10,079 nucleotides of DNA from an uncultured Lachnospiraceae bacterium. Its GTDB lineage: Bacteria; Bacillota; Clostridia; Lachnospirales; Lachnospiraceae. The position numbers and the translations under genes are program-made. Below are positions 4,833-7,343 of the stretch, piece by piece. The number at the start of each line of letters is the position of its first letter. Position 1 is the first letter of the stretch. The stretch covers positions 1 to 10,079 of the forward strand of contig CAKRNI010000082.1 of assembly GCA_934370915.1 (NCBI GenBank), written 5' to 3'. Below the pieces are notes generated by a model that ran no database searches, was not told the DNA's origin, and saw only the letters and a program-made list of their open reading frames with translations.

Positions 4833-5285
4833 ATGAAAGTTGACAGACACAGTAAGATCGTGGAGCTGATCGGAAAATATCAGATCGAGACGCAGGAGGA
4901 GCTTGCGGAGTATCTGAAAAAGGCCGGATATCATGTGACACAGGCGACAGTATCGAGAGATATCCGTGAATTGAAGCTCACGAAAGCTCCTGGCAAAAAT
5001 GGCCGCCAGTGCTATGCAGTCATGCAGCATCAGAAAGATTTTGGCGAGAAATATATCCGTATTTTCAGGGACTGCTATGTGTCCATGGACATGGCACAGA
5101 ATATTCTTGTGATCAAGACGGTTTCCGGTATGGCGATGGCAGTCGCTGAGGCACTGGATGTGATCGGTTTTCATGAGATCGTCGGCTGTGTGGCCGGAGA
5201 CAATACGATCATGTGCGCGGTGCGGACCGTGGATGACACGATCATTCTGATGGATAAGCTGAAGAAGATCATTGAAGGAAAGTAA
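4833..5285 (+). CDS. argR: Arginine repressor ArgR/AhrC
   Basis: This 150-residue protein is a full-length ArgR, the hexameric repressor that uses arginine as co-repressor and controls arginine biosynthesis and catabolism. The N-terminal winged helix-turn-helix contains QEELAEYLKKAG and the recognition helix QATVSRDIRELKL. The C-terminal oligomerisation and arginine-binding domain contains NILVIKTVSGMAMAVAEALD and GCVAGDNT. The usual ligand-binding pair is Asp-Asp (GDDT); here it is Asp123-Asn124. The start is the ATG at 4833, with AAAGGGG 8 nt upstream. An in-frame ATG at 4722 would add 37 unrelated residues. The 107-bp gap after nadK contains no convincing promoter or ARG box, so co-transcription is likely. 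The TAA stop lies inside the left arm of an inverted-repeat element. Confidence 0.95.
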   Translation: MKVDRHSKIVELIGKYQIETQEELAEYLKKAGYHVTQATVSRDIRELKLTKAPGKNGRQCYAVMQHQKDFGEKYIRIFRDCYVSMDMAQNILVIKTVSGMAMAVAEALDVIGFHEIVGCVAGDNTIMCAVRTVDDTIILMDKLKKIIEGK

Positions 5286-5410
5286 CTGTTCAGTAGGTCT
5301 GCGCATTTACTGCGCTGACCGTAAGAAAACTTAGAATAGAAGGCAAAAATCCTATCGGCACAGCCGATTTGGAATGGATTTTTGCGCGTAACTGTTTACT
5401 GAACAGTTAC
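5282..5410. repeat. 129-bp structured element with perfect 14-bp terminal inverted repeats (MITE-like or structured RNA)
   Basis: GTAACTGTTCAGTA at 5282-5295 is the exact reverse complement of TACTGAACAGTTAC at 5397-5410. Between the arms are three hairpins. One is GGTCtGCGC/GCGCtGACC (5296-5320). One is TAAG/CTTA (5322-5333). The third is a two-tier stem: GCAAAAATCC (5343-5352) pairs with GGATTTTTGC (5376-5385) and encloses ATCGGC/GCCGAT (5354-5368). As RNA this folds as a multibranch structure closed by a 14-bp helix. It lies between the argR stop codon and the operon terminator, so it would be transcribed as argR 3' UTR. No transposase is present. It could be a non-autonomous mobile element, a REP-like repeat or a functional RNA. 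The ends contain TA, compatible with TA-target insertion, but no clear target duplication is visible. Confidence 0.8.
5388..5410. repeat. Local 9-bp hairpin that re-uses the right arm of the 129-bp element
   Basis: GTAACTGTT at 5388-5396 is a direct copy of the first nine bases of the left terminal repeat. It pairs perfectly with AACAGTTAC at 5402-5410 across a 5-nt loop (TACTG). The right arm can therefore pair either with the distant left arm (14 bp) or with this nearby copy (9 bp), and the two pairings exclude each other. No T-run follows, so it is not a terminator. Confidence 0.75.
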
Positions 5411-5468
5411 GGAGGAAAATAGACTTTGGACCTTTTGGTTTAAGGCAGAATATTGCAGAAATATTGAG

Positions 5469-5523
5469 CCCTGCAAAGCAGAACCGGGATAATTACCTGG
5501 TTTTGCTTTGCAGGGATTTTTTT
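5469..5523 (+). terminator. Strong Rho-independent terminator of the xseB-argR operon
   Basis: CCCTGCAAAGCA (5469-5480) pairs perfectly with TGCTTTGCAGGG (5504-5515). The pairing continues inward through GAACCGGG and CCTGGTTT with two G-U pairs, giving a stem of about 20 bp with a 7-nt loop at 5489-5495. Seven T residues follow at 5517-5523. The site is about 180 bp beyond the argR stop codon and before the recN promoter. Confidence 0.95.
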
Positions 5524-5543: not shown

Positions 5544-5557
5544 AGAACAACTGTTCG
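5544..5557. promoter_or_regulatory. LexA (SOS) operator 1 upstream of recN
   Basis: AGAACAACTGTTCG contains a perfect GAAC-N4-GTTC palindrome, the core of the Gram-positive LexA box (CGAACRNRYGTTYC). It lies just upstream of the -35 hexamer of the recN promoter. On the reverse strand it matches 12 of 14 consensus positions by my count. Confidence 0.75.
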
Positions 5558-5565
5558 AAAAACAC

Positions 5566-5594
5566 TGGACAATCGAACATATGTGTGCTATACT
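5566..5594 (+). promoter_or_regulatory. Sigma-A promoter of recN
   Basis: TGGACA (5566-5571) is one base from the -35 consensus. After a 17-bp spacer, TATACT (5589-5594) is one base from the -10 consensus. A TG at 5586-5587 forms an extended -10. Transcription should start near 5601, giving a leader of about 50 nt before the recN ATG. LexA operator 2 fills the spacer and operator 3 lies just after the predicted start, an arrangement suited to direct repression. Confidence 0.85.
5574..5587. promoter_or_regulatory. LexA (SOS) operator 2, inside the recN promoter spacer
   Basis: CGAACATATGTGTG matches the Gram-positive LexA box at 12 of 14 positions by my count. The left half-site CGAAC is perfect and the right half-site is degenerate (GTGT instead of GTTC). 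It lies exactly between the -35 and -10 hexamers, where bound LexA would exclude RNA polymerase. Confidence 0.75.
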
Positions 5595-5607: not shown

Positions 5608-5621
5608 CGAACAAATGTTTT
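5608..5621. promoter_or_regulatory. LexA (SOS) operator 3, just downstream of the recN transcription start
   Basis: CGAACAAATGTTTT matches the Gram-positive LexA consensus CGAACRNRYGTTYC at 13 of 14 positions by my count, the best of the three. It covers roughly +8 to +21 relative to the predicted start. Confidence 0.85.
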
Positions 5622-5651: not shown

Positions 5652-7343
5652 ATGCTTGTTGGTTTACATGTAAAAAATCTTGCTCTGATTGAGCAGGCTG
5701 ACGTGGAGTTTGGAAACGGTTTAAATATCCTGACCGGTGAAACCGGAGCCGGAAAGTCGATTATCATTGGCTCTGTTGCCCTGGCGCTGGGCGCGAAAGC
5801 GTCAAGGGATATGATCAGATGTGGGGAAGAGTATGCGTATATTGAGCTTATTTTTTCGGTTGATGACGAGAAAAAACGGGAAGAATTAAAGAAAATGGAT
5901 GTGTATCCGGATGAAGATGGTCTTTTGATCATCTCAAAAAAGATCACCCAGACGAGAAGCATCAGCCGGATCAATGACGAGACAGTGACGACGGCGCGCT
6001 TAAAAGCCGTGACCGGAAAGCTTCTCGATATCCATGGACAGCATGAACATCAGTCTCTCCTTCATAAGCAGAAACATCTGGAGATCCTTGATGAATATTC
6101 CTGGAGAGAGACAGGAAGCTTAAAAAGAAATGTGGCAGAGAGTTACCGGAGATATCTGGAATTAAAGGGAAAACTTGACGGATTCTCTCTGGATGAGGAA
6201 AGCCGGAAGCGGGAACTTGATTTCGTGAGATTCGAGATCGATGAGATTGAGGATTCTGCATTAAAACCGGGCGAAGAGGAAGAACTTGCGGCGAAATTCC
6301 GTAAATTTTCCCATAGTCAAAAAATTATGGAAAGCTTACAGGGAGCTTATCAGGCGGTAGATGGGGACGCGATCGGGCGTGCGTACCGTGAGATGGAAAG
6401 TGTGGCATCCTACGATGAAAGACTGTCCGGGATCGCTGCGGGGCTTTCTGACGCGGAAAGTATTTTATCGGATATCTGCAGGTCGATCTCAGACTATATG
6501 GATGAGATGGAGTTTTCAGGGGAAGATTTTAAAAAGACGGAAGAACGTCTGGATCTTGTCCGTGGAATTATGGCAAAATACGGAAACAGCGAGGAAGCTG
6601 TCTTAAAGAGTCTGGAAGAAAAGAAAAAACGACTTGAGGACTTGGAAAACTATGCGGAACTGGCGTTTGCCGCAAAAGCCGAGTTTGAGGAGCAGAAGCG
6701 GGTTCTGGGACTTCTCTGCGGACGGCTCTCGAAGGAGAGAGAAAAAGCAGCAAAGATTCTGGAGAACCGGATCAGGGAGGAGCTTGAGGATCTGAATTTT
6801 CTTCATGTGGAATTTCGGGTAGATGTACACCGGACCGATCACTTTACGGCAGCCGGCTCCGACGAGGTAGAATTTTTGATCTCCACAAATCCGGGAAGTA
6901 TTCCGCCAAGGCCGCTGGGGGAAGTTGCTTCCGGCGGTGAACTTTCAAGAATTATGCTGGCGATCAAGACGGTCCTTGCGGACACGGACGATATTCCAAC
7001 TCTGATCTTCGATGAGATCGATACCGGTATCAGTGGACGGACTGCCCAGAAGGTATCGGAGCGCCTGTCCTATATCGGAAAAAAGCATCAGGTACTCTGT
7101 ATTACCCACCTTCCGCAGATTGCGGCAATGGCGGATACGCACTTTGAAATAAAAAAATCTGTGGAGAATGGTGTGACTGCGACGAAAATCAGAAAGCTTA
7201 CAGAGAATGATGAGGTAGATGAACTCGCGAGACTCTTAGGCGGCGCTGAGATTACGGAAAAAGTACGGGAAAATGCCGAGGAGATGAAACGTCTGGCTGA
7301 GGAGACGAAGAATCACAGAGCTGTACTTCGAACAGCGGGATGA
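5652..7343 (+). CDS. recN: DNA repair protein RecN (SMC-like ATPase)
   Basis: RecN is an SMC-related ATPase that acts early in recombinational repair of double-strand breaks. This protein has 563 residues, normal for the family. Visible features are Walker A GETGAGKS (29-36), a long charged coiled-coil middle region (roughly 150-375), the ABC signature SGGELSR (427-433), Walker B LIFDEIDTGISG with Asp454-Glu455, and the switch segment CITHLPQIAAMA. The start is the ATG at 5652, with GAGGGA about 6 nt upstream. An in-frame ATG at 5583 would place the coding region across the -10 and two LexA boxes, so I reject it. It is a single-gene transcription unit with its own LexA-controlled promoter and a terminator at 7398-7431, consistent with DNA-damage induction independent of the upstream operon. 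Confidence 0.97.
   Translation: MLVGLHVKNLALIEQADVEFGNGLNILTGETGAGKSIIIGSVALALGAKASRDMIRCGEEYAYIELIFSVDDEKKREELKKMDVYPDEDGLLIISKKITQTRSISRINDETVTTARLKAVTGKLLDIHGQHEHQSLLHKQKHLEILDEYSWRETGSLKRNVAESYRRYLELKGKLDGFSLDEESRKRELDFVRFEIDEIEDSALKPGEEEELAAKFRKFSHSQKIMESLQGAYQAVDGDAIGRAYREMESVASYDERLSGIAAGLSDAESILSDICRSISDYMDEMEFSGEDFKKTEERLDLVRGIMAKYGNSEEAVLKSLEEKKKRLEDLENYAELAFAAKAEFEEQKRVLGLLCGRLSKEREKAAKILENRIREELEDLNFLHVEFRVDVHRTDHFTAAGSDEVEFLISTNPGSIPPRPLGEVASGGELSRIMLAIKTVLADTDDIPTLIFDEIDTGISGRTAQKVSERLSYIGKKHQVLCITHLPQIAAMADTHFEIKKSVENGVTATKIRKLTENDEVDELARLLGGAEITEKVRENAEEMKRLAEETKNHRAVLRTAG

Follow-up and report, generated by a model that had tools for sequence, protein, structure and literature searches.

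A dispersed MITE with likely IS66-type ends at the argR-recN boundary of a Lachnospiraceae genome, with copies in relatives and a covarying core probably maintained as a folded single strand

The window analyzed here is a stretch of 10,079 nucleotides from an uncultured Lachnospiraceae bacterium (assembly GCA_934370915.1, contig CAKRNI010000082.1), and the element under study occupies positions 5282-5410 of its forward strand, to which all features described below refer. It lies between argR and recN, both of which were recognized by eye from the translations of open reading frames (ORFs): argR spans 4833-5285 and encodes 150 amino acids from the ATG at 4833, while recN starts at 5652. The argR stop codon TAA (5283-5285) sits within the left end of the element, and the protein is unchanged by the insertion; with the element, argR ends in ...KIIEGK followed by TAA, without the element and one copy of the flanking duplication it ends in ...KIIEGK followed by TAG, and the product has 150 amino acids in both cases. 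A strong hairpin with a T run, resembling an intrinsic terminator, is found at 5469-5522, 58 bp past the element and before recN, which places the element within the presumed argR 3' UTR. Further towards recN, we observed three LexA-like boxes at 5545-5557 (GAACaactGTTC), 5574-5587 (CGAACatatGTgt), and 5608-5621 (CGAACaaatGTTt) and a promoter-like site (5566-5594) with these boxes around it; this arrangement would fit SOS control of recN.

The element comprises 129 bp and is bounded by 14-bp terminal inverted repeats (TIRs), GTAACTGTTCAGTA at 5282-5295 and TACTGAACAGTTAC at 5397-5410, which are exact reverse complements 101 bases apart, as a preliminary description of this DNA had stated. On the outside, it is flanked by the two copies of an 8-bp target duplication (GAAGGAAA at 5274-5281 and GGAGGAAA at 5411-5418), which match at 7/8 positions. 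The left TIR is followed by stem-loop A (5296-5320, arms GGTCTGCGCA and TGCGCTGACC), for which the fold and covariation in relatives provide evidence, and by a linker (5321-5342), whose opening GTAAGAA (or GTGAGAA) is found again in relatives and is unpaired in their consensus. Stem-loop B (5343-5385), a long hairpin with an asymmetric internal loop, is supported by the fold, the consensus, and covariation. While stems A and B had already been listed in the preliminary description, the last helix had been overlooked: the start of the left TIR (GTAACTGTT) recurs as a direct copy at 5388-5396, and this copy can form a perfect 9-bp 3' hairpin (5388-5410) with 5402-5410 of the right TIR. Across relatives, 99.0% of cells are paired in this hairpin, compared to 93.9% for the pairing of the two TIRs with each other. 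A small stem at 5322-5333, which had been listed as well, is present in the single-sequence fold and absent from the consensus of relatives, which makes it unlikely to be a genuine feature. The region 5270-5425 folds with an energy of -55.2 kcal/mol, compared to a shuffle mean of -32.0 kcal/mol (sd 3.5; z -6.6), and none of 200 shuffles equaled it, which bears out the earlier impression of more order than in an ordinary spacer. The ORF list of the window contains no ORF of at least 80 amino acids inside the element. It is thus short, non-coding, and TIR-flanked, as expected for a non-autonomous transposable element (MITE), and several dispersed copies per genome, a further hallmark of MITEs, were found in relatives (genomes G308 and G026, see below).

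A comparison of argR-recN spacers for empty sites, as had been suggested, succeeded in part. In L001 and L002, the closest relatives found (RecN 75% identical), a spacer of 10 bp devoid of the element separates argR from recN; like all relatives compared, they belong to species other than that of the window. Of 80 recN loci, 72 showed a recognizable argR-like end ahead of recN, across spacers of 3-201 bp, and 8 did not. The covariance model described below gave 4 hits in the 80 loci, none of them inside the 72 located argR-recN spacers.

Copies of the element are widespread elsewhere. BLAST searches retrieved three human faecal records that are 88-92% identical to the element and have unrelated flanks, two of which carry exact 8-bp duplications around it. 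These records (MT837311.1, MT836459.1, and MT839789.1) are deposited as UNVERIFIED 'Bacteriophage sp.' sequences, and they may be bacterial contigs instead of phage. With the element as DNA query, matches were obtained in 7 of the 40 genomes behind the recN loci (in G030 by 24 bases only) and in 37 of the 299 genomes in a draw from the family to which G007 (Clostridium sp. MCC353, the genome of locus L007) belongs, which we took to be Lachnospiraceae. A covariance model built from 37 diverse copies revealed relatives in 69 of the same 299 genomes, a count made under strict filters with at most 11 candidates scored per genome. In a draw from the class, 5/291 genomes matched: G007 and G240, which are also part of the family draw, G507 and G548, which belong to the genus of G240, and G578, whose match falls in an apparent coding sequence and was rejected as probably false. 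Copies within one genome can be numerous and very similar: the 3.2-Mb genome G308 harbors 40 copies at 98-100% identity among the 40 of 372 candidates that were scored, and at least 95 of 133 bases are matched at each of 36 places in G026. A 159-bp variant with extra sequence in the stem A loop is represented by L114:4819-4977 and by comparable copies in G026, and another copy (L311:1501-1633) is located about 170 bp from an S10-Clostridia ribosomal leader (RF03136) in the same locus. No match to the element was found in PLSDB, which speaks against spread on plasmids, and a pattern scan of IMG/VR for both exact TIRs returned none.

From the fetched loci, 197 model hits were obtained, 8 of which were dropped because they lacked a flank or repeated a place, leaving 189 distinct copies. 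The flanking 8 bp agree fully in 100 of these, at 7/8 positions in 44, at 6/8 in 10, and at 5/8 or fewer in 35; duplications at 7 or 8 of 8 positions are therefore present in 144/189 copies, compared to 1/945 in a shifted control. Given the second copies, which the preliminary description had proposed to look for by BLASTN, and their target duplications, we regard the mobility of the element as nearly certain.

According to crude ORF calls, 136 of the 189 copies are located between two genes, 41 are overlapped by an ORF, and 12 lack a gene on one side. Among the 91 copies between tandem genes, 64 are oriented in the sense of the genes and 27 antisense (P 1.3e-4), a bias to which replication co-orientation may contribute; the genes on either side are divergent for 36 further copies and convergent for 9. 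Of the 73 copies that follow a sense gene, 34 sit within 20 bp of the gene end, and the start of the next sense gene is at a median distance of 92 bp from the copy. The copy in the window conforms to this sense, downstream-of-gene pattern. Boxes resembling a -10 element occur upstream of 93/189 and downstream of 72/189 copies, which is a weak difference.

The ends of the element begin with GTAA (GTAACTGTTCAGTA). The IS66 ends printed in PMC11946415 begin with GTAAGCG, so that the agreement covers the first four bases only, and 8-bp duplications are listed for two IS66 elements in a table of PMC3281130. GTAA ends and 8-bp duplications fit the IS66 type as printed there (PMC11946415, PMC3281130). 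Beyond the TIR, no likeness between the MITE and the ends of the IS elements from related genomes described next was discernible by eye. A scan for IS ends in related genomes yielded two elements with clear ends and duplications. The TIR of one, in G294, differs (GTAAGTAGGAAAT), whereas the other, in G143, has fitting ends (GTTACTGTTCACACC and GTTACTGTTCAGACG) with an 8/8 duplication around 2358 bp that encode an IS66 transposase (PF03050 at 1.6e-25; NF033517 at 162 bits, under the cut-off of 180). Two additional IS66 elements with 8/8 duplications were identified in G327 (1984 bp, TIR GTTACAGTTCACACC, transposase with one stop) and G039 (2436 bp, TIR GTTACTATTCACGG, transposase split over frames). 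Such ends also occur on both sides of the IS66 loci L263 and L266 (genomes G330 and G047), with no duplication of at least 7 positions reported. Furthermore, the first 12 bases of the window's element (GTAACTGTTCAG) are the exact right end of L270 in G055; this element is not bordered by a duplication and was called IS66-like from a 28% match to the transposase of IS element L259. GTTACTGTTCAC is found exactly both in L259 and in the MITE copies L207 and L214. The ends of a further IS66 element, in G027, are dissimilar (GTAAACGGTAG). Taken together, the ends of the element are likely of the IS66 type.

PF03050 profile searches gave matches in 4/8 and 12/24 genomes, with no match in the other 12 of the 24 MITE-bearing genomes, whose contigs are incomplete. 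With the G143 transposase as query, the MITE was present in 9/18 transposase-positive genomes compared to 60/281 others (Fisher P 0.009). Because 60 of the 69 MITE genomes lack a match to this query, and because G026 has no PF03050 match and G308 only a sub-threshold one (in both cases on incomplete contigs), we regard a transposase of the IS66 family as the putative mover of the element.

Several much smaller units have the same kind of ends. Two TIRs placed head to head make up 30 bp at L163:3466-3495 and are flanked by an 8/8 duplication, and units of 29 bp, likewise with 8/8 duplications, were found at L186:675-703, L194:640-668, and L229:1501-1529. The latter span from the TIR to the complement of GTAAATGC in the stem A loop; all three stop at the GTAA of this loop, as if GTAA plus little else were an end. 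Similar small units at L188 and L187 have duplications of 7/8 and 6/8, respectively. In addition, a 153-bp unit (L185:1340-1492) combines the TIR type of the MITE and an 8/8 duplication with a different interior, which is palindromic as well. The fully duplicated units of 29-30 bp and L185 indicate that movement does not need the full core. It should be noted that G007 contains tandem arrays of palindromes of about 30 bp and 8-bp duplications (L137:1719-1862 and L139:843-1054), which look CRISPR-like at first sight. A TIR-like pair 2.4 kb apart in the same genome was considered as an autonomous element and rejected, since it encloses a transporter and an AraC-like gene (by eye) and its sites are separate palindromes of about 30 bp.

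The interior of the element was analyzed for covariation. Of 88 alignment candidates, 4 were dropped as unorientable (L185 among them), and the false L186:3427 was excluded later; alignment A1 contains 37 of 43 representatives, without L175, L127, the 159-bp L114 copy, L133, L098, and L186. Changes on both sides were observed in 22/38 pairs for the structure in which the TIRs pair with each other and in 24/34 pairs for the structure with the 3' hairpin, with none of 500 shuffles as high in either case. Sliding the partner reduced pairing from 92-93% to 30-41%; this control keeps the relatedness of the sequences, which the shuffle control does not. Thus, neither the lack of a second copy nor the lack of compensatory changes, named in the preliminary description as what would speak against its proposals, was encountered, and stems A and B are supported by the covariation. 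When inverted repeats are repaired by template switching, the outcome can look like compensatory change. We see no reason, however, why template switching should lead to the following asymmetry.

In the internal stems, G.T combinations outnumber A.C combinations by 83 to 41 (P 2e-4), whereas the pairing of the TIRs with each other yields 53 and 60, with each combination entering a single time within an 85% cluster (34 clusters from 180 unique sequences, one poorly paired position omitted). By helix, G.T:A.C is 28:7 in the 3' hairpin (P 5e-4), 23:11 in stem A (P 0.058), and 32:23 in stem B (P 0.28), so that stems A and B are not significant singly. Alignments A2 and A3 were fitted to the covariance model and may lean towards G.T; in A1, which was not fitted, the ratios are 16:5 for stem A, 8:2 for the 3' hairpin, 10:18 for the TIRs, and 12:17 for stem B, where 6 of the A.C combinations come from one apparently misaligned column. 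If double-stranded DNA were what is conserved, G.T and A.C should be tolerated equally, and the asymmetry therefore points to a folded single strand. A G.T mismatch is also better tolerated than A.C in DNA, so that this strand may be DNA that folds during replication or transposition. From these sequence patterns, selection of the interior at the level of RNA appears likely.

The same core was also found with other ends. In the genus of G240, the model matched in 39/61 genomes, and 9 of 21 model hits in fetched loci of this genus have IS66-type TIRs (10-12 of 12 positions), 8 of them with duplications of 7/8 or 8/8 and one (L386) with 6/8. The remaining hits have different ends and match at no more than 6/8 positions at the model boundaries, save for the tandem arrays L402 and L422; this boundary comparison also took in a further 21 hits in the genus. 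We observed here a second multi-copy class (L391, L392, L397, L399-L403, and L413-L432), which keeps the core, has other ends, and, as judged at the boundaries of the model, lacks a clear 8-bp duplication. In this class, the sequences of stem A and the 3' hairpin are wholly different and still paired, just as stem A is wholly different yet paired in other subfamilies of the element. The divergent set (alignment A4) is paired in 95.4% of cells and has changes on both sides in 30/34 pairs, with 0/500 shuffles as high. Together with alignment A5, in which 5 of 21 rows duplicate rows of A4, it shows G.T:A.C ratios of 34:1 in cells and 11:1 in distinct pair-and-letter combinations. Furthermore, G507 and G240 harbor a core without TIRs between atpF and atpH (genes recognized by eye; L312:1501-1628 and L316:1501-1627), adjoining a partial stem A repeat. 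Between the two species, this locus differs at 20 of 929 columns, and the four substitutions in stem A are two compensatory doubles. The core at this site may be derived from the mobile element or may be its source.

Considering all these results, 5282-5410 is, in our judgment, probably a non-autonomous MITE with IS66-type ends, the core of which is kept in the form of a single strand that folds, most likely as RNA, and would act in cis on mRNA. The preliminary description had offered a MITE or a structured RNA in the argR 3' UTR as alternatives, and the evidence supports both together. We suggest that an IS66-family transposase moved the MITE in trans and that its insertion at the end of argR duplicated 8 bp. 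A host transcript would then read through the element and convert it into RNA, with the folded strand being the one that starts with stem A, and a folded block after a stop codon and before the next gene could alter the processing, stability, or read-through of the mRNA while leaving the genes intact. For this cis effect, a reasoned guess, ERIC and Correia repeats serve as the models (PMC10969869). Computation shows the TIRs, target duplications, dispersal, covariation, strand asymmetry, and orientation bias, whereas the transposase, transcription of the window copy, and the effect of the RNA are inferred.

An explanation that would likewise yield strand asymmetry and covariation is that the hairpins act as single-stranded DNA during transposition or replication, with the fold helping the transposase to act or the element to be copied. 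It agrees with the 3' hairpin, which contains the right TIR and shows the strictest pairing of all helices, and with the recent movement indicated by near-identical copies. We nevertheless consider it unlikely, since the core looks dispensable for movement, judging from the 29-30-bp units and L185 with their full duplications, and since it is kept with other ends and, at the atp site, with compensatory changes even where TIRs are lacking; a bias of copies towards the sense of genes would not be expected from it either. The similarity of copies within one genome could also suggest an ordinary MITE without selected function, the palindromes of which are upheld by mutation, that is by template switching and recent common descent. 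Inverted repeats can indeed be corrected by template switching between their arms, but stems that are wholly different between subfamilies while the unpaired linker and loops recur, together with an excess of G.T over A.C in the internal stems that is not seen in the TIRs, make this account very unlikely.

That the core occurs within a single genus on at least two sorts of ends, both of them multi-copy, and that its copies number in the tens per genome leads to a further possibility, namely a trans-acting or guide-like RNA of a mobile element, with a partner protein encoded elsewhere, that spreads on more than one set of ends; HEARO and omega RNAs are the role comparison for such a reading. 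As 64 of the 91 tandem-gene copies are in sense orientation, which is a better fit to a role in cis, we regard it as quite unlikely. The position of the element within the presumed argR 3' UTR would also be compatible with a chance run of hairpins or the plain terminator of argR in one species. The probability of this is close to nil in view of the copies in 69 of 299 genomes and the z of -6.6; a plain spacer or terminator is excluded by the dispersal, the duplications, and the separate terminator-like hairpin at 5469-5522. A MITE with a core that is probably selected as cis-acting RNA hence remains our preferred interpretation. A broader idea, to which we give rather less than even credence, is that the core (stem A, GTAAGAA linker, stem B, and 3' hairpin) might be a widespread and so far undescribed mobile structured RNA of Lachnospiraceae, present at tens of sites per genome, carried by at least two unrelated sets of ends, and able to be kept without ends at atpF-atpH.

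Bacterial MITEs are usually regarded as remnants of IS elements, with their hairpins being a by-product of the inverted repeats. If the broader idea is true, the element would be a transposable regulatory RNA that seeds new UTR structures. With an interior that is compensatory and asymmetric in its wobble pairs and TIRs that are not asymmetric, selection on the folded strand becomes separable from selection on the transposon ends. Given how frequent the element is in this abundant gut family, copies may be present in many of its operon spacers and UTRs, and an effect on mRNA is directly testable because a genome can contain many near-identical copies.

Searches against Rfam returned no family at gathering score for the window. 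When the window stretch and 19 loci were scanned by E-value, only sub-gathering hits overlapped the element (BaMV_CRE at E 3.7 in the window and P9 at E 0.068 in L400), and a named Rfam RNA was rejected. HEARO RNAs are structured RNAs in mobile elements of the IS200/IS605 type and thus resemble our element in being a structured RNA on a mobile element; however, the Rfam E-value scans gave no HEARO match, and the ends and transposase type are different. The literature searched, which left aside most subscription journals and all preprints, contained no description of this element. ERIC is comparable in length (127 bp), palindromic order, intergenic sites, and tens to hundreds of copies, and in Yersinia it changes mRNA decay (PMC10969869). 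It forms, though, one long stem-loop (PMC2267715), whereas our element has several hairpins, and identity with ERIC was rejected because a search of 20,395 E. coli records (E 0.01) gave no DNA match to the element. The Correia/NEMIS elements of Neisseria are MITEs within mRNAs, and RNase III cleaves Correia repeats at their TIRs (PMC10969869); compared by description, they differ in host, and our element has further hairpins between its TIRs. QMITE2 of Coxiella burnetii shares duplications (7-9 bp), TIRs, a predicted structured transcript, and a location mostly in 3' untranslated regions, while its TIRs are 23-29 bp long and covariation is not mentioned for it in the text consulted (PMC10969869). 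Compared to IS66 and its derived MITEs, our element has shorter TIRs (12-14 bp instead of 20-30 bp) and a core conserved across a bacterial family; it has in common with them the GTAA-type ends and the 8-bp duplications, and near-identical ends are found on IS66 elements in related genomes.
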